From assembly GCA_947631195.1 (NCBI GenBank), contig CANRKK010000011.1:1-52435 (forward strand): a stretch of DNA of 52,435 bases. Reading direction: 5' to 3'. This document shows, piece by piece, positions 1-35,284 of this stretch. How positions within the stretch are numbered: the first letter of the stretch is position 1; each line of letters opens with the position of its first letter. Both the position numbers and the translations under genes were made by a program. The stretch is from an uncultured Clostridia bacterium (GTDB taxonomy: Bacteria > Bacillota > Clostridia > Christensenellales > Borkfalkiaceae). The notes beneath the pieces are model-generated. The model was given only the letters and a program-made list of their open reading frames with translations, did not search any database and was not told the DNA's origin.

Positions 1-870
1 CGAGCGAAGCGACGCTTTGCGCACCTTATAATAAATATTTCAAATAATAAGCCGCAAAATTTTTCGTGAGTTTGGGCAGCCAGCCGCCCTTGCCGCGATT
101 AATAAGGGCGCACATATTATATAATCGCGGCAATTCACCCCGCTCAGGCGCAAGTGTGCGCAAATTGTGTCTTGCGGCGCAGGGAAACCCTGCTTGCAAC
201 ATAATTATTTAATATAATAGCAACGTAAATTAAGGTTTGTCATTTCGCGCGAGGGCTTTGCCCGCTGCCCTGCCGAAGGTTCCCTTTGGGAAACGGCAGA
301 ACGATATGAGACCCACGCAGTGGGCGATTGAGTGAGAGTTCTCACACGGTGGCTGCTTTTGGTGCGTTAAAACGCACATAAAGCCATCGCTACGCTCGGG
401 CGGGGTTGGATAAGACGGCCACCCCCCTTGGCTCCCCTTAGTAAGGGGAGCTGTCACCGATAGGTGACTGAGGGGATTGTTTCAAGTTTGACGTGCGGCA
501 ATATAAATCAAGCGGTAACGCAATAAAGATACTATGCTCAAGCGTTACGCTTGCCCCCCCTCAGTCCGCTACGCGTCCAGCTCCCCCCACAATGGGGGCA
601 GCCAAGGTGGTTGTCCGCCGCCTGTAAGTTGTAAACGCGTTCGTAGCGTTCAGCGGAATGAATGGCTAACGAAAGTTGAGGTTGTAACGCACGTTTCGCC
701 CAAAAAAATAAAAAAATGCCCGCGCAGCTTATAATTCACATACCACGTTCATATTTAAAACGTCGCTGCGCGACAGATTCTTCGGCTATCCTCAGAATGA
801 CAGGAAGGAGGGCCCCGCGCAGGTTATAATTCACATACCCAAATTATTATAAAAACCCGCGGCGGAACGG
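1..870. repeat. Intergenic mosaic of structured short repeats
   Basis: I find no convincing gene here. The stretch is built from units seen again in other gaps of the window: an A element at 52-216; a unit with a CCCTTTGGG-AAACGGCAG core near 270-300; a C element at 426-480 (hairpins CTCCCC...GGGGAG and GTCACC-GATA-GGTGAC); a D element at about 480-710 with CAAGCG-TTA-CGCTTG and a conserved CAGCGGAATGAATGGCTAAC segment; and an E unit at 762-812 (GTCGCTGCGCGAC ... CAGAATGACAGG) that returns at 28389. The short open frames across it follow the repeat sequence rather than a protein. Confidence 0.8.
52..216 (+). repeat. Repeat element A, copy 1 (left end truncated)
   Basis: The copy carries the right arm of hairpin H1 (AAATTTTTCGTGAG), a perfect 10-bp hairpin H2 (TGCCGCGATT at 91-100 with AATCGCGGCA at 123-132) and hairpin H3 (GCAGGG-AAA-CCCTGC) followed by TTGCAACATAATTATTT. 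The H1 left arm is missing. Other copies lie at 23001, 25279, 27267, 27633, 28456 and 35063. Confidence 0.75.
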
Positions 871-22432: not shown

Positions 22433-22556
22433 GGACGAGCGCGGATTTCTCAAAACAGCACAGTGCGCTGTTTTGCCGCGCGAGATGAGTGAGCGCATAC
22501 GTCCCGCGCGAACGGTGCCCGAACACGGCGTTGTCCTTACGCCGTGTGAGAAAGCT
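22433..22556 (+). repeat. Repeat element B, copy 1, inside a C element
   Basis: It begins GGACGAGCG and ends GAGAAAGCT. Hairpin 1 is CAAAACAGC (22451-22459) with GCTGTTTTG (22467-22475); hairpin 2 is ACACGGCGT (22523-22531) with ACGCCGTGT (22539-22547). The C element continues on both sides (CTCCCTTTAGTA before, ACTGAGGGGATTGT after). Confidence 0.8.
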
Positions 22557-23000
22557 GGCTGCGAAGCAGACTGAGGGGATTGTCACCTTAAATTTACATA
22601 CACATTAATAATTTTCCTTTTATATTTTGTCCCGCCCACCCCCCCAATATTGTTAAAAAATAGGATATAATACCGCAATTTTTAAATAAGTACCGCACCA
22701 ATTAAGCTTTGTCACCACTACCGTGGCTTCTTCCCCACGGGGGGAAGCTCCCGCGCAGCGGGTGATGGGAGGGGAAATAAAAAAAGCAACCGCCTCTCCC
22801 ACCCGTCACTTCGTGACACCCTCCCCCGTCGGCGACGGAAGAGGGCACGGGGAGAGCGGTGCCCCGCCGTCTGTATGTTGAAACGTTTTGTAGCGTTCAG
22901 CGGAATGTATGGCTAACGAAAGTTGAGGAACTAACGCTCGTTCCGCCCAAAAAAGCAACGTGACGTTGCATCCATATATTTATACTGCAATTACAAAGTG

Positions 23001-23270
23001 GCAACCGCACGAGAATTTTTGTGAACATTTCAAAATAATAAACGGCGCAAGCAAGCTACGCTTGCGCCCGCGCACACAATTTGCGCATACCTGCGCCTCT
23101 GCCGTTTCCCAAAGGGAACCCTCGGCAGGGCGTCGGGCAAAGCCCTCGCGCAGCGGGGTGAATGCCTGCGATTAAATAATCGTGGGCCCTTAAAAAATCG
23201 CAGGCAGAGGACGAGTAGTCCTAAAACTCACGAAAATTCGCAGGCACGGCCTGCCGAGAATTTTGTGAAC
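23001..23270 (-). repeat. Repeat element A, copy 2, inverted, upstream of glgB
   Basis: Read on the minus strand: H1 (GTTCACAAAATTC ... GAATTTTCGTGAG), H2 with 11-bp arms TGCCTGCGATT / AATCGCAGGCA, an inserted hairpin unit (CTGCCG ... CGGCAG), then H3 with arms GCAAGC / GCTTGC. The H1 end stops 16 bp before the glgB start codon, leaving room only for the GAGGAGG site. Confidence 0.75.
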
Positions 23271-25278: not shown

Positions 25279-25590
25279 TTCACAAAAATTTTCGTGCGGT
25301 TGCGCACACTCAAATTTTTCGTGATTTTTAGGGCTGCTCGCCCTCTTTGCGCTATAATTAAGGGCGCACATATGATATGATGGCGCAAATTCACCTCGCT
25401 CAGGCAAAAGTGTTTGCAAATTGGGACGAGCGAGGCATTTCATAGCACAGCACAGTGCGCTGTGCGTGCCGAAGCGAGATGAGTGAGCGCATACGTCCCG
25501 CGCGAACGGTGACCGAGCCAACGGTTTTTCCTTGCCGTTGGCGAGAGGGCTGGCGCAAAAGCGTGGTTTTGCTTGCAACATAATTATTTA
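25279..25590 (+). repeat. Repeat element A, copy 3, interrupted by B
   Basis: It starts with TTCAC directly after the glgB stop codon. H2 arms are TTTGCGCTAT / ATGGCGCAAA; B copy 2 is inserted between H2 and H3; H3 arms are GCAAAA (25555-25560) / TTTTGC (25567-25572), in place of GCAGGG / CCCTGC elsewhere. Confidence 0.8.
25424..25551 (+). repeat. Repeat element B, copy 2, inside A copy 3
   Basis: Hairpin 1 is GCACAGC (25445-25451) with GCTGTGC (25459-25465) around the same loop ACAGTGC as copy 1; hairpin 2 is GCCAACGG (25517-25524) with CCGTTGGC (25535-25542), quite different from copy 1 but still paired. Confidence 0.8.
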
Positions 25591-25762
25591 AAAAAAACGC
25601 AAAGCCCATTAAGCCGTGTCATTTTGTGCGAGCGAAGAGACGCCCTGCCGAGGGTTTCCCTTTGGGAAACGGCAGAGCGTGAGCGTAGCGGTAAGCGAAA
25701 TAATCCCCCCGTGGGCTGGTCGAGGTTTGATGAAACGGCTTTCCCCTTGGCTCCCTTTAGTA

Positions 25763-25888
25763 GGACGAGCGAGGCATTTCATAGCACAGCACAGTGCGCT
25801 GTGCGTGCCGAGCGAGATGAGTGAGCGCATACGTCCCGCGCGAACGGTGACCGAACACGGCGTTGTCCTTACGCCGTGTGAGAAAGCT
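25763..25888 (+). repeat. Repeat element B, copy 3, inside a C element
   Basis: Same ends as copy 1 (GGACGAGCG ... GAGAAAGCT). It interrupts a C element, which continues as GTCACC-GATA-GGTGAC-TGAGGGG. Hairpin 1 is of the GCACAGC type and hairpin 2 of the ACACGGCGT type. Confidence 0.8.
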
Positions 25889-26292
25889 GTCACCGATAGG
25901 TGACTGAGGGGATTGTCAATTCCCGGTTGATAAGCGATAATGTAAGTCAAGCGGTACGGTAATTAAGATACTCGGCTGCAGCGACACGCTGCTTTTGTCC
26001 CGCCCACCCCCCCAATAATGTTAAAAACGCCAATAAAGCGATAATGCAATAAAGATACTAAGCTCAAGCGGAACGCTTGCGGCGGGCCGAATGGCCCGCC
26101 GCCTGTTTGTTGCAAACGGTGTTGTAGCGTTCAGCGGAATGAATGGCTAACGCGTTTTGAGGCTGTAACGCTCGGTTCGCCCAAAAAAAATACGTTAAGA
26201 AACTGCGCTCAAGCGTTACGCCTGTTTGATTGGAGCACCCGCCGTTCTTCCGAAAAAATTTTTAAGAAACTGCGCTCAAGCGTTACGCTTGC

Positions 26293-26330
26293 TTGACCTT
26301 GTAAAAAATATGTAGTATAATTCCTACATA
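26293..26330 (+). promoter_or_regulatory. nadA promoter with palindrome over the -10
   Basis: TTGACC (26293-26298), 17-bp spacer, TATAAT (26316-26321). TATGTAG (26309-26315) and CTACATA (26324-26330) form a perfect 7-bp inverted repeat around the -10, a likely repressor site for control by NAD or nicotinate status (inference). Confidence 0.7.
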
Positions 26331-26346
26331 ATCGATAGGTATTATT

Positions 26347-27261
26347 ATGATAAAAGATATGCAGGCCGAAATTTTGCGGCTGAAAAAGGAACGCGACGTG
26401 TGCATTTTGGCTCACAGCTACATGTCCGAAGAGGTGTGCGAGGTGGCCGACTTCGTGGGCGACAGCTATGCTCTTGCGGTTAAGGCCAAAACCGCCCCGC
26501 AGTCAACCGTTCTGATGTGCGGCGTGCGGTTTATGGCGGAGACGGTCAAAATTCTCTCGCCGCAAAAAAAGGTGATTTTGTCCAACCCTTTGGCGGGCTG
26601 CCCGATGGCCGAGCAGATGGACAGGGACGTGATAGCCGAGGTTAAAAAAATGTACCCGGGCTATGCCGTCGTGGCGTACATCAACACCACTGCGGAGCTT
26701 AAAACCATAGCCGACTACTGCGTGACGAGCTCCAGCGCGCTCAAAATCTGCCGCGCCATTCCCGAAAAGAACATACTGTTTATTCCCGACATAAATTTGG
26801 GCACGTACATAAAAAACCAACTGCCCGAAAAGAATTTCAAGCTGCTTTCGGGCGGCTGCCCCACCCACGCGCGGATTGAAAAGAGCGACGTGCTCGCCGC
26901 GAAAAAACTGCACTCCGACGCGCTGTTTTTGGTGCACCCGGAGTGCCGTCCCGAGGTGGCGGAGCTCGCCGACTACGTCGGTTCCACGTCGGGGATAATG
27001 GACTTCGCTGAAAAGTCCGCCGCCAAAGAATTCATAATCGGCACCGAAAATTCCATCGTGCAGCACCTGCAATACAGGTGCCCCGCCAAAAAGTTTTATC
27101 CGCTCTCCAAGGACATGGTGTGCCACAACATGAAGCTCACCACCCTGCCCGAAGTCTACGCCTGTCTTACGGGCAACGGCGGCGAGGAGATAGAAATAAG
27201 CGAAGAGACGCGCGTTGCGGCGGCGGTGTGTATCGAGCGGATGATAGCATACGGCGGATAA
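26347..27261 (+). CDS. nadA: Quinolinate synthase
   Basis: 304 residues. NadA condenses iminoaspartate with dihydroxyacetone phosphate to quinolinate in NAD biosynthesis. The three [4Fe-4S] ligands are C85 (AGCPMA), C171 (GGCPTHA) and C259 (DMVCHNMK); AHSYMSEEV and MCGVRFMAE line the active site. nadB and nadC, usually adjacent in Clostridia, are not in this window. The gene is bracketed by repeat mosaics, with an A element starting five bases after the stop codon. Confidence 0.96.
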   Translation: MIKDMQAEILRLKKERDVCILAHSYMSEEVCEVADFVGDSYALAVKAKTAPQSTVLMCGVRFMAETVKILSPQKKVILSNPLAGCPMAEQMDRDVIAEVKKMYPGYAVVAYINTTAELKTIADYCVTSSSALKICRAIPEKNILFIPDINLGTYIKNQLPEKNFKLLSGGCPTHARIEKSDVLAAKKLHSDALFLVHPECRPEVAELADYVGSTSGIMDFAEKSAAKEFIIGTENSIVQHLQYRCPAKKFYPLSKDMVCHNMKLTTLPEVYACLTGNGGEEIEISEETRVAAAVCIERMIAYGG

Positions 27262-27266
27262 AAGGT

Positions 27267-27452
27267 TTCACAAAAATTTTCGTGTGGTTGCGCACACTCA
27301 AATTTTTCGTGAGTTTGTGGGGCTCTGCCCCACTTGCCGCGATTTTTAGGGCGCACATATTATATAATCGCGACAATTCACCCCGCTCAGGCAAAAGTGT
27401 TTGCAAATTGGGTCTTGCGGCGCAGGGGAACCCTGCTTGCAACGTAAATTAT
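27267..27452 (+). repeat. Repeat element A, copy 4 (most complete forward copy)
   Basis: It begins with TTCAC five bases after the nadA stop. H1, H2 (CCGCGATT ... AATCGCGAC, one mismatch) and H3 (GCAGGG-GAA-CCCTGC) are all present, followed by TTGCAACGTAAATTATTTT. This uninterrupted copy defines where B was inserted in copies 3 and 5. Confidence 0.8.
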
Positions 27453-27632
27453 TTTAAAAAATTTAACCGTCTGCAGGACTTCGTAAGGGCACCACTCCGT
27501 GGCTTCTTCCCCTTGGGGGGAAGCTCCCGCGTAGCGGGTGATGGGAGGGGATTGTTACCTTAAACTAAAATATCAAATAATTATTCCTTTTTAAATTTTG
27601 TCCCGCCCACCCCCCCAATATTGTTAACACAG

Positions 27633-27935
27633 TTCACAAAAATCTCGCGCCGTTGCGGGCGCTGCGATTTTTCGTGAGTTTGGGCGGCCAGCTTCTCACA
27701 CGGCGTAAGGGCAACGCCGTGTTCGGTCACCGCTCGCGCTTTGCGCTATACGCTCGCTCATCTCGCTCGGCACGCACAGCGCACTGTGCTGTGCTATGAA
27801 ATGCCTCACTCGTCCTTGCCGCCATTTTAAGGGCGCACATATTATATAATCGCGGCAATTCCCACTGCTGAGGCAAAAGTGTTTGCAAATTGGGTCTTGC
27901 TGCGCAGGGAAACCCTGCTTGCAACATAATTATTT
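27633..27935 (+). repeat. Repeat element A, copy 5, interrupted by B
   Basis: H1 here has arms AAAATC ... GATTTT with GCGCC / GGGCGC further in. B copy 4 is inserted, inverted, between H1 and H2. H2 is TTGCCGCCATT / AATCGCGGCAA (one mismatch). Confidence 0.75.
27690..27815 (-). repeat. Repeat element B, copy 4, inverted, inside A copy 5
   Basis: Plus-strand order is AGCTTCTCACACGGCGT ... CTCACTCGTCC. Compared with A copy 1 it lies between GGGCGGCCAGC and CCTTGCCGC, so the host element is interrupted cleanly. Confidence 0.8.
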
Positions 27936-28455
27936 TAAAAAAATTAACCGCCTGCAGACTTCGTAAGGGCACGCCTCCCCGTGGCTCCCTTTAGTAAGGG
28001 GAGCTGTCACCGATAGGTGACTGAGGGGATTGTCATTCAAGTTTTAAGTGCGGCAATTTCAATCAGGCGGTAACGCAATAAAGACACTATGCTCAAGCGT
28101 TATGCTTGCCCCCCTCAGTCCGCTGCGCGTCCAGCTCCCCCCACAACGTGGGGGCAGCCAAGATGGGATGGTGGTCGGCGACGGAAGAGGGCAAGGGAAA
28201 GCGGCGGCCCGCCGCATGTTTGTTGCAAACGGTATGTAGCGCTCAGCGGAATGTATGGCTAACGCTTTTTGAGGTTGTAACGCTCGTTTCGCCCAAAAAG
28301 CAACGTGACGTTGCATCCATGTATTTATACTGCAATTACGAAGTTGCAACCGCACGAAAATTATTGTGAACATTTTTAAAATAATAAAAGTCGCTGCGCG
28401 ACAGATTCTTCGTCGGGTTGCACCCGACTCAGAATGACAGGAGGGGGGAAGTCGC

Positions 28456-28668
28456 GCAACCGCACGAAAATTTTTGTGAACTAAAATAATAAACGGCGCA
28501 AGCAAGCTACGATTGCGCCAGCGCACCACATTTGCGCACACCTGCGCCTGAGCGAGGTGAATGCCTGCGATTATATAATCGCGGGCCCTTAATAAATCGC
28601 AGGCAGAGGAGCGGAGCTCCTAAAAATCACGAAAAAGCGCAGGCACGGCCTGCCGAGCTTTTTGTGAA
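28456..28668 (-). repeat. Repeat element A, copy 6, inverted, upstream of the Rrf2 gene
   Basis: H2 arms are TGCCTGCGATT (28562-28572) and AATCGCAGGCA (28595-28605), 11 bp perfect; H1 arms are GAAAAAGC / GCTTTTT, compared with GAAAATTC / GAATTTT in copy 2. The H1 end lies 13 bp before the start codon at 28682. Confidence 0.75.
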
Positions 28669-28681
28669 CGGAGAATTTTCT

Positions 28682-29080
28682 ATGATGATAACCACAAAGG
28701 GCAGGAATGCCTTAAAAGTAATGGTAGATTTGGCGCGGCACGAGGGCGAGGGCTACATATCCCTTGCCGATGTGGCCGCGCGCCAAAATGAAAGTTTAAA
28801 ATATCTCGAGGCTTCGGCAAAACAGCTGTCCGCCGCGGGGCTGGTGGTGTCCGCAAGGGGCAAAAACGGCGGCTACAAACTCGCCCGCCCCGCCACGGAC
28901 TACACTGCGGCCGAAATTCTACTTTCGGGCGAAGGCACCCTCGCGCCCGTCAGCTGCCTCGAAGCCGGTTCAGCGCCCTGCCAAAACGCAGGCACGTGCG
29001 CCACTTTGCCCCTGTTTAAAGAGTTGGACGAAGTGATTATGACCTTTTTAAAGTCCAAAAAGCTGAGCGATCTGATATAA
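28682..29080 (+). CDS. Rrf2 family transcriptional regulator, IscR-like
   Basis: 132 residues. A winged helix-turn-helix covers about residues 1-65. Three cysteines C92-x7-C100-x5-C106 correspond to the Fe-S ligands C92, C98 and C104 of E. coli IscR, so it probably senses Fe-S cluster status. It directly precedes iscS-iscU, and a perfect 9-bp inverted repeat overlaps the iscS promoter, so repression of the iscS-iscU genes is the natural role. CymR-like cysteine control is less likely because of the cysteine cluster. The ATG at 28682 is preferred: GGAG precedes it, and the longer frame runs into repeat sequence. Confidence 0.88.
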   Translation: MMITTKGRNALKVMVDLARHEGEGYISLADVAARQNESLKYLEASAKQLSAAGLVVSARGKNGGYKLARPATDYTAAEILLSGEGTLAPVSCLEAGSAPCQNAGTCATLPLFKELDEVIMTFLKSKKLSDLI

Positions 29081-34782: not shown

Positions 34783-35284
34783 GAATTGCATCGCAATTTA
34801 AAATAATTGCAAAGCAAGTTAAGCCGTGTCATTTTGAGCGTGAGCGAAGCGGTAAGCGAAATAATCCCCATGTGGGCTGGTCGAGGCTGTTTGGAATGGC
34901 AACCCAATCTTGCCCTCTTCCGTGTCAACGGGGGAGGGTGCCCTGAAAGGGCGGGTGGGAGAAGCGCAATACATATATTTATTTCTGGGCGAAACGAGCG
35001 TTACAACCTCAACTTGCGTTAGCCATACATTCCGCTGAGCGCTACAAACCGTTTCAAAAAGGTTCACAAAAAAGCAGACGTTCGACGATGTCTGCTTTTT
35101 TCGTGAGTTTGAGGGCTGCTCGCCCTCTTTGCGCCATAATTAAGGGCGCACCATAATATAATGGCGCAAATTCACCCCGCTCAGGCGCAAGTGTGCGCAA
35201 ATTGGGTGCGCCGGCGCAGGGAAACCCTGCTTGCGCCGTAAATTATTTTAGAATAATTATAATAAACATTAAAGTTCAACAAAC
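34783..35284. repeat. Repeat mosaic after the calcium ATPase
   Basis: No gene is visible. It holds a unit with GGTAAGCGAAATAATCCCC and GGGCTGGTCGAGG (also at 25695), an inverted D element (about 34985-35060, with GTTAGCCATACATTCCGCTG), and A copy 7. Confidence 0.8.
35063..35250 (+). repeat. Repeat element A, copy 7
   Basis: H1 has arms TCACAAAAAAGCAGAC / GTCTGCTTTTTTCGTGA, sharing only the outer bases with the other copies. H2 is TTTGCGCCAT (35128-35137) / ATGGCGCAAA (35161-35170), perfect. H3 is GCAGGG-AAA-CCCTGC with GCGC outer pairs. Confidence 0.8.

Follow-up and report, generated by a model that had tools for sequence, protein, structure and literature searches.

Pneumococcal BOX, RUP, and SPRITE elements and other bacterial miniature inverted-repeat transposable elements (MITEs) are modular, stem-loop-rich, intergenic, and nonautonomous. 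The double-hairpin elements of fungal mitochondria are short mobile hairpin elements with compensated arm changes. Integron attC sites are folded single-stranded DNA (ssDNA) recognized by an enzyme. The ends of IS200/IS605 elements are likewise folded ssDNA recognized by an enzyme (PMC6006769). Repetitive extragenic palindromic (REP) sequences are 21 to 65 nt long and mostly carry a GTAG/GTGG guide, although some classes have no guide (PMC6006769). REPINs are mobile ssDNA hairpins that are short, lie outside genes, and show compensatory changes (PMC3116915, PMC6006769, PMC2267715). Here, we describe a mobile repeat of about 191 bp present in dozens of copies in a gut bacterium of the genus Coproplasma (assembly GCA_947631195.1, here G000). 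The genome contained 2.34 Mbp in 81 contigs and was 97.6% complete. The stretch analyzed, called the window below, is contig CANRKK010000011.1 (C11; 52,435 nt). It contained seven copies. Like REPs and REPINs, the element is repeated, is extragenic, and is predicted to fold as ssDNA; the DNA folds of two copies had z values of -4.2 and -6.0.

Element architecture and arm covariation

The element has five hairpins (H1, A2, H2, H2b, and H3) and six helices, H3 being made of an outer and an inner helix. From 5' to 3', it contains H1, A2, H2, the single strand lk, H2b, AAATTGGGT, H3, and a terminal ...ATTATTTTAAAA. H1 spans TTCACAAAAA...TTTTTCGTGA and has one unpaired C close to its foot. Of the 56 copies that the search expression matched, out of 66 with an intact 5' end, 55 have kept this bulged C. 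The 5' arm of A2 is purine rich, as in GTGGGGC/GCCCCAC. H2 has an 11-bp stem and a conserved loop of about 19 nt. The strand lk follows H2 and has the consensus TTC[A/C]C...GCTCAGG. The alleles of H2b are GCGCA/TGCGC and GCAAA/TTTGC. Those of outer H3 are TTGC/GCAA, GCGC/GCGC, and GTGC/GCAC, and those of inner H3 are GCAGGG/CCCTGC, GCAAGC/GCTTGC, and GCAAAA/TTTTGC.

A first-pass annotation, made from the letters of the window, had reported seven copies with three hairpins whose arms change together. All seven copies were real, and each was recovered by a covariance model (CM) built from 27 own-genome copies. The seven loci stand, but the copies given at 23001 and 28456 sit on the minus strand. 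A second repeat family proved to interrupt the copy at 25279 within H3 and the copy at 27633 within A2, and the copy at the start of the window lacks its outer 5' end. H1, H2, and H3 exist, and the arm sequences quoted for them are present; A2 and H2b bring the number of hairpins to five. The annotation missed the exchange of whole hairpins between copies and the coupling of A2 with lk.

The compensated stem differences that it described were borne out. In a structure-blind MAFFT alignment of 27 full-length copies from the host genome, 94.1% of 1,155 cells held standard pairs. Two-sided changes were found in 18 of the 43 pairs, with 152 two-sided cells and 2 one-sided cells. The covariation score was 0.328, and the shuffle mean was 0.107; none of 500 shuffles reached 0.328. 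Sliding the partner by 1 to 3 columns, which preserves relatedness, gave scores of 0.040 to 0.076. Two further sets were aligned by fitting to the model. The first held 25 copies from 22 genomes of genus relatives, with two-sided changes in 38 of 43 pairs and a score of 0.527 (shuffle, 0.160). The second held 21 copies from three other genera (19 from one genus), with 36 of 43 pairs and a score of 0.571 (shuffle, 0.150). The covariation score stood above the shuffles in all three sets, and the copies lie genome-wide with arms that still pair. These results support the proposal of selection for structure in RNA or ssDNA.

The hairpins fall into a small number of distinct alleles, and the alleles of several hairpins assort freely (n = 34 to 56 copies). 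Free assortment was seen for H1 versus A2 (P = 0.61), H1 versus inner H3 (P = 0.59), and A2 versus outer H3 (P = 0.24). H1-H2, A2-H2, H2-lk, A2-lk, and outer-inner H3 were associated (P = 0.0005 each). Weak associations joined H2 with outer H3 (P = 0.013) and H2 with H2b (P = 0.022).

Whole hairpins also differed at insertions shared with the relative G016. The first shared insertion (L042 1810-2061 versus G016 C2:85232-85422) has the same flanks in both genomes. H3, H2b, and H1 differ there in both arms, and A2 and the H2 stem are identical. At the second, H2 is TGGCTGCGAT/ATCGCAGCCA in one genome and TGCCTGCGAT/ATCGCAGGCA in the other. From these in-place changes, whole hairpins were exchanged or changed together in place; breakage happens too. 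Whole hairpins may be exchanged by recombination in the conserved linkers, possibly as gene conversion, and this would be why the arms change together.

Coupling of A2 with lk

The strongest allele association was that of A2 with lk, with H2 lying between them. In a scan of all column pairs by mutual information with average product correction, helix pairs ranked first. The best two couplings that were neither helix pairs nor neighbors both joined A2 to lk. They were columns 60-111 (z 11.6, rank 20) and 50-111 (z 10.2, rank 23). The A2-lk couplings 62-109 and 48-109 ranked 33 and 66, and an H1-tip coupling (16-27) ranked 32. The A2-lk couplings follow a parallel diagonal. Along one arm of A2, z was 6.2 (48-109), 3.9 (49-110), 10.2 (50-111), and 2.4 (51-112). 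Along the other arm, it was 8.0 (62-109), 4.8 (61-110), 11.6 (60-111), and 3.6 (59-112). Off-diagonal cells (columns 49, 61, and 63 with 108 or 110) reached z 3.8, and the matrix was mainly diagonal. Haplotype linkage is a poorer account of this coupling, as the off-diagonal signal would then be spread more evenly. One DNA fold had lk paired with the GGGTG strand that follows H2b; this pairing was rejected because it showed no covariation (z at most 1.4).

A text-search parse independent of the model gave 52 distinct A2/lk combinations from 95 copies. It gave z 15.5 at layer 4, 6.8 at layer 2, and 4.0 at layer 5; near the tip, off-diagonal values of 5.3 and 4.8 were seen. Under a code of G to C and A to T, parallel register zero matched in 154/229 cases (z 6.4). 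In one parse, 62 of the 192 sequences were left unparsed, and 99 distinct sequences remained. The 21 copies from other genera lie outside the model and gave 19 distinct combinations. Parallel register zero matched in 84/123 cases there (z 3.9; 0 of 1,000 shuffles). Registers -2 and -1 also scored (z 3.4 and 2.6) because runs of G allow them, and antiparallel registers reached z 1.3 at most. One of these copies has GAGAGACAAC facing CACTCTTTCC.

The purine fraction was 0.86 in the 5' arm of A2 (alignment A6) and 0.19 in lk. A Hoogsteen third strand has this same geometry, being parallel and complementary to a purine arm. The coupling may be an intramolecular triple helix. Two motifs fit the observed triads, each with exceptions: pyrimidine on the top strand or purine on the bottom strand. 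The triads thus fix neither the strand nor the polymer. Such triads are canonical or tolerated in triple helices. The triads were tabulated without the own-genome alignment (A4), in which the 3' arm is one column out of register.

Distribution and mobility

The model matched 78 times in G000 at an E value of ≤0.01, and 56 matches exceeded 100 bits. The 78 matches are a lower bound because only 150 of the 1,373 first-look candidates were scored. Of 39 copies, 28 overlap no open reading frame (ORF) of ≥100 amino acids (aa). The other 11 overlap a mechanical ORF, which we took to be spurious or overextended at its start. The element was present in 33 of the 36 other sampled genomes of the genus. 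Across the family-wide sample, it was found in 45 of 151 genomes and 5 of 18 genera, the host genus counted. It was absent from all 24 genomes sampled from other families of the same order. Candidatus Coproplasma species and other Clostridia metagenome-assembled genomes were among the matches listed for one 22-nt motif. No described family was recognized at first, and Rfam 15 agreed. A scan of the window at the gathering score returned two tRNAs only, and a single copy with flanks (27250-27480) matched no family at an E value of ≤1. A literature search gave nothing describing the element by title or the opening of the abstract. Carriage by phages or plasmids was rejected: one copy used as a blastn query had no match in phage and plasmid collections, and viral contigs had no exact match to the 22-nt motif.

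Presence and absence between species indicate mobility. We compared 243 adjacent orthologous gene pairs, covering 613 kb of G000 and 1.04 Mb of G016. The element was in both genomes at 3 pairs, in G000 only at 16, and in G016 only at 1. A further presence/absence site (L039; 1,216 versus 57 bp) lies outside these pairs. The flanks at empty sites are too diverged to show target-site duplication. Unlike the ends of a DDE-type MITE, the 5' TTCACAAAAA and the 3' TTATTTTAAAA are not inverted repeats of each other. Abutting arrays of three and four copies occur in the relatives G027 and G203.

The junction between nadA and rrf2 also speaks for mobility. In the window (27262-28682), it holds about 1.4 kb of repeats, flush with the stop codon and the ribosome-binding site. 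We examined 30 loci, our own included. The gap was 4 to 6 nt in 6 of the 14 measured loci and ≤63 nt in 12. In 10 unmeasured loci, the ATG of the next gene lies within about 10 nt in the printed sequence. G016 has a reverse copy against the same ribosome-binding site. G241 (L239 ~2420-2466) has a solo H1-like hairpin at the junction. It resembles what the collapse of a cluster between inverted copies would leave, akin to a solo long terminal repeat.

The 5' end of the element is the one that faces nearby conserved genes, defined as ORFs matched in the fetched part of G016, with the first start codon taken as the start. It lay within 25 nt of such a gene in 23 of 56 cases. Seventeen of these were 1 to 18 nt past a stop codon (16 of them at 1 to 10 nt), and six were 13 to 25 nt ahead of a start. 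No 3' end did so (0/42). The relative G005 is an exception to this polarity and has a 3' end against the nadA stop codon.

Candidate mobilizers were sought near the copies. There are 148 ORFs of ≥130 aa lying no more than 1.5 kb from a copy, and 39 of them have no match in G016. These 39 were read by eye over their first 60 residues; no multicopy transposase was recognized in this reading, which included no family scan. One of them, present once in the fetched DNA, is presumably an IS30-like transposase. A search for the Y2 transposase of IS91/Helitron-like elements had 0/13 matches, and its control was likewise silent.

DNA or RNA

Compensated arm changes are usually read as a sign of RNA. 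Here, G-U is scarce when set against the RNase P RNA of the genus, and this points to DNA as the folded molecule. Among 103 distinct copies aligned to the model, G-T made up 0.65% of paired cells and A-C 2.8%, and these shares were 0.31% and 0.58% when the structure was refolded on the alignment itself. In the RNase P RNA of 28 genus genomes (one truncated locus of 29 omitted), they were 8.97% and 0.51%. The ratio of two-sided to one-sided changes was 926:14 in the element versus 375:106 in RNase P RNA. RNase P was chosen as the control because tRNA gave only 13 usable molecules (G-T, 4.5%). Transition-type changes made up 58% of changed pairs in RNase P and 47% in the element, with no clear discrimination. 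An RNA read from that strand should tolerate wobble pairs and have more G-T than A-C; RNase P does both, and the element does neither. This scarcity of G-U, the lack of a G-T excess over A-C, and the two orientations to genes favor DNA.

A structured RNA is the best of the alternatives, but we consider it unlikely. The element would be transcribed and act folded, as a terminator-antiterminator, a riboswitch-like RNA, or a mobile noncoding RNA, with a pyrimidine third strand of C+.G-C and U.A-U triples. RNA forms these triples well. Structured RNAs typically have covarying stems, tertiary coupling, and conserved linkers that stay unpaired. At several layers, other genera included, the top-strand code (C with G-C, T with A-T) agrees with a pyrimidine motif in RNA. 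H1 with its flanking A/T tracts resembles a bidirectional terminator in G000. Against this stand the wobble data, as A-C is not rarer than G-T and the share read from the other strand, 2.8% (fitted) or 0.58% (refolded), is still under that of RNase P. The 5' end faces stops and starts alike, which leaves transcription without a fixed direction. Rfam has no matching family, and the H1 T tract is short or broken in some relatives. The first-pass annotation had left the choice between a REP/MITE-like element and a structured RNA; the mobile element gained support, and of the two options DNA is favored.

Preferred reading and other alternatives

We lean, at a little better than even confidence, toward miniature nonautonomous REPIN/MITE-like mobile DNA of about 191 bp that is selected for a folded single-strand form. 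The selected feature would be the fold of one strand while it is single stranded during replication, transfer, or excision. The fold would comprise the five hairpins, the bulged foot of H1, and a short stretch of lk lying along A2 as base triples. A recombinase or replication factor acting in trans would recognize the folded strand and place new copies of the element at gene junctions. These would then accumulate, take in nested repeats, and build tandem arrays. A fuller version is more tentative. In it, the single strand has a tertiary fold of five hairpins and an intramolecular triple helix, with lk in the groove of A2. This fold would be maintained by covariation across genera and recognized as folded DNA by a system outside the known ssDNA transposases.

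Several observations weigh against mobile DNA with a folded strand or against the covariation of its arms. As to the covariation, the number of further pair types in the own-genome alignment was not above shuffles (25 versus 28.4). Outer H3 was only 63.9% paired in the structure-blind own-genome alignment because two allele groups are one base out of register. Broken H2 stems occur, with several mismatches at L037 12038-12232 and one each at window 27773-27941 and L038 9948-10125. The G016 copy at the third shared insertion has a broken H2 and a nested repeat in A2. Several hairpins assort nearly freely, so part of the compensation is block exchange and not independent mutation. Divergence is lower in the RNase P set, at 83% mean identity, than in the element sets, at 63 to 65%. 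The triple helix faces three difficulties. One antiparallel register also beats shuffles (127/229; z 4.1; 52 combinations). The third-strand code is imperfect, with A-T facing A at layer 2 and C-G facing A at layer 4. At the first shared insertion, lk differs at layer 4 and beyond while A2 is unchanged. Copies lie in both orientations on one contig, and a lagging-strand bias was not evident, with no formal test applied. The Y1 transposase and reverse transcriptase domains do not follow the copy number either. PF01797 (Y1) had no match at an E value of ≤1e-5 in G000, G002, G006, and G015, each of which has ≥38 element matches. PF00078 (reverse transcriptase) was unmatched in seven of eight high-copy genomes and matched in four of five genomes with no element match.

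Mobilization by IS200/IS605 or RAYT enzymes was accordingly rejected for the four high-copy genomes. PF01797 was found in 6 of the 24 other genus genomes searched, and its control was matched in 5 of 14. Mobilization by a reverse transcriptase or retron was rejected from the distribution of that domain relative to copy number.

Mutational pairing is improbable as an explanation. Intrastrand template switching at quasi-palindromes would keep the arms of a plain MITE complementary with no function of the fold. The arms are near-perfect palindromes that change in blocks, and one-sided states are very rare. This process would be expected to invert the loop sometimes. Among A2 loops, 37 were forward and none was in the six inverted forms searched (the inverses of two rare forms lay outside the search), and hairpin inversion was rejected for those forms. 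Template switching cannot yield the coupling of A2 with lk because lk lies outside the hairpin and in the wrong (parallel) sense for copying. The bulged C of H1 is also retained.

A host-used gene-end element, with H1 as a bidirectional terminator or insulator and the remainder as a passenger, has the least to recommend it: it fits the placement of 5' ends just past stops and ahead of starts, the solo hairpin of G241, and an H1-like half ahead of glgB in G016, but insertions disrupt junctions that are only a few nucleotides across in many relatives, and a terminator placed there would be harmful to expression, H2, H2b, H3, and the A2-lk contact are conserved too, and a terminator-only view of H1 is weakened because T tracts are not kept in some relatives.

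Features of the window

The copies, the parts of the reference copy, and the neighboring repeats are given in Table 1. In the copy at 25279, the H3 remnant starts at about 25552, after the nested repeat. The gene next to the 5' end of the copy at 28478 is one that we take to be Rrf2/IscR-like; a second match to the model gave 28481 as the lower bound of this copy.

Table 1. Positions of element copies, reference-copy parts, and family-B repeats in the window
Feature	Position	Strand	Description
Copy	28..216	+	CM 174.4 bits; outer 5' part of H1 missing or replaced
Copy	23027..23269	-	CM 162.3 bits; 5' end 17 nt from glgB start codon; ~50 nt extra in lk
Copy	25279..25594	+	Starts directly past glgB stop codon; CM match 25279-25446; H3 split by nested family-B repeat (~25424-25551)
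Reference copy, full length	27267..27460	+	CM 210.8 bits; 5' end 5 nt past nadA stop codon
Reference H1	27268..27312	+	Foot TCAC/GTGA; unpaired C at 27308; A/T tracts; variable inner stem
Reference A2	27317..27333	+	Purine-rich 5' arm; pairs from own-genome alignment
Reference H2	27334..27376	+	11-bp stem; conserved loop ~19 nt (AGGGCGCACATATTATAT)
Reference lk	27377..27391	+	TTCACCCCGCTCAGG; positions 2-5 (27380-27383) couple, in parallel, with consecutive A2 pairs; candidate third strand
Reference H2b	27391..27404	+	GCAAA/TTTGC here; GCGCA/TGCGC in 24/27 aligned copies
Reference H3	27415..27442	+	Outer helix TTGC/GCAA; inner helix GCAGGG/CCCTGC
Copy	27633..27941	+	CM 176.3 bits; A2 split by nested family-B repeat (~27693-27815); one mismatched H2 pair
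Copy	28478..28668	-	CM 185.2 bits; 5' end abuts ribosome-binding site of presumed Rrf2/IscR-like gene
Copy, full length	35063..35254	+	CM 204.3 bits; H1 allele GCAGAC/GTCTGC
Family-B repeat	22433-22562
Family-B repeat	25424-25551
Family-B repeat	25763-25889
Family-B repeat	27693-27815

Family B is a hairpin-rich repeat of about 125 bp that is often nested in element loops or lies beside the element. With 40 of its 116 candidates scored, it matched the genome 45 times; two of these matches are to the flanking element only. A palindromic repeat, GGCTCCCCTTAGTAAGGGGAGCTGTCACCGATAGGTGACTGAGGGGATTGT, occurs at window 424-480, 25860-25916, and 27977-28033. Other families (TTCAGCGGAATG...GGCTAACG; GTCCCGCCCACCCCCCCAATATTGTTAA) occupy much of the same intergenic clusters. 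H1-like right halves with no other part of the element lie at about 22999-23026, 28350-28371, and 28456-28481. In several copies (L042 1810-2061, L044 8241-8489, and L052 499-752), the tip of H1 carries an insert of about 60 nt that starts with CGCGAGCGAAGCGACGCTTTGCGCACC or a close variant and is a further nested family.

Comparison with known systems

If the A2-lk contact is a triple helix, the element would offer a natural DNA fold backed by comparative evidence and spreading in gut bacteria. Whatever binds or cuts the folded strand would give a route to the mobilizer.

By proposed mode of working, REPINs are the nearest kind. The element shares with the REP/REPIN-RAYT systems its extragenic position, its many copies, and a folded single strand as the proposed mobile form. 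It differs in its length of about 191 nt, its five hairpins, its candidate tertiary contact, and the lack of a Y1 match in the four high-copy genomes. The REP-like label of the first-pass annotation holds for mobility and folding and fails for a canonical REP. On inspection of alignments A1/A2 (alignment labels), GTGG occurs within some H1 and A2 hairpin alleles and never as a conserved foot. As REP membership fails on the transposase and the guide tetranucleotide, we regard the element as a variant form of miniature mobile DNA whose fold may include a triple helix. The IS200/IS605 ends differ in that no Y1 gene tracks the copy number of the element. Integron attC sites differ in that no attC boxes were recognized by eye in the element, in a comparison that included no search for an integron integrase. 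The fungal double-hairpin elements are organellar and have two hairpins. BOX, RUP, and SPRITE are set apart by their descriptions and not by their sequences: the stems of our element vary freely, its linkers are kept, and it shows no terminal inverted repeats.

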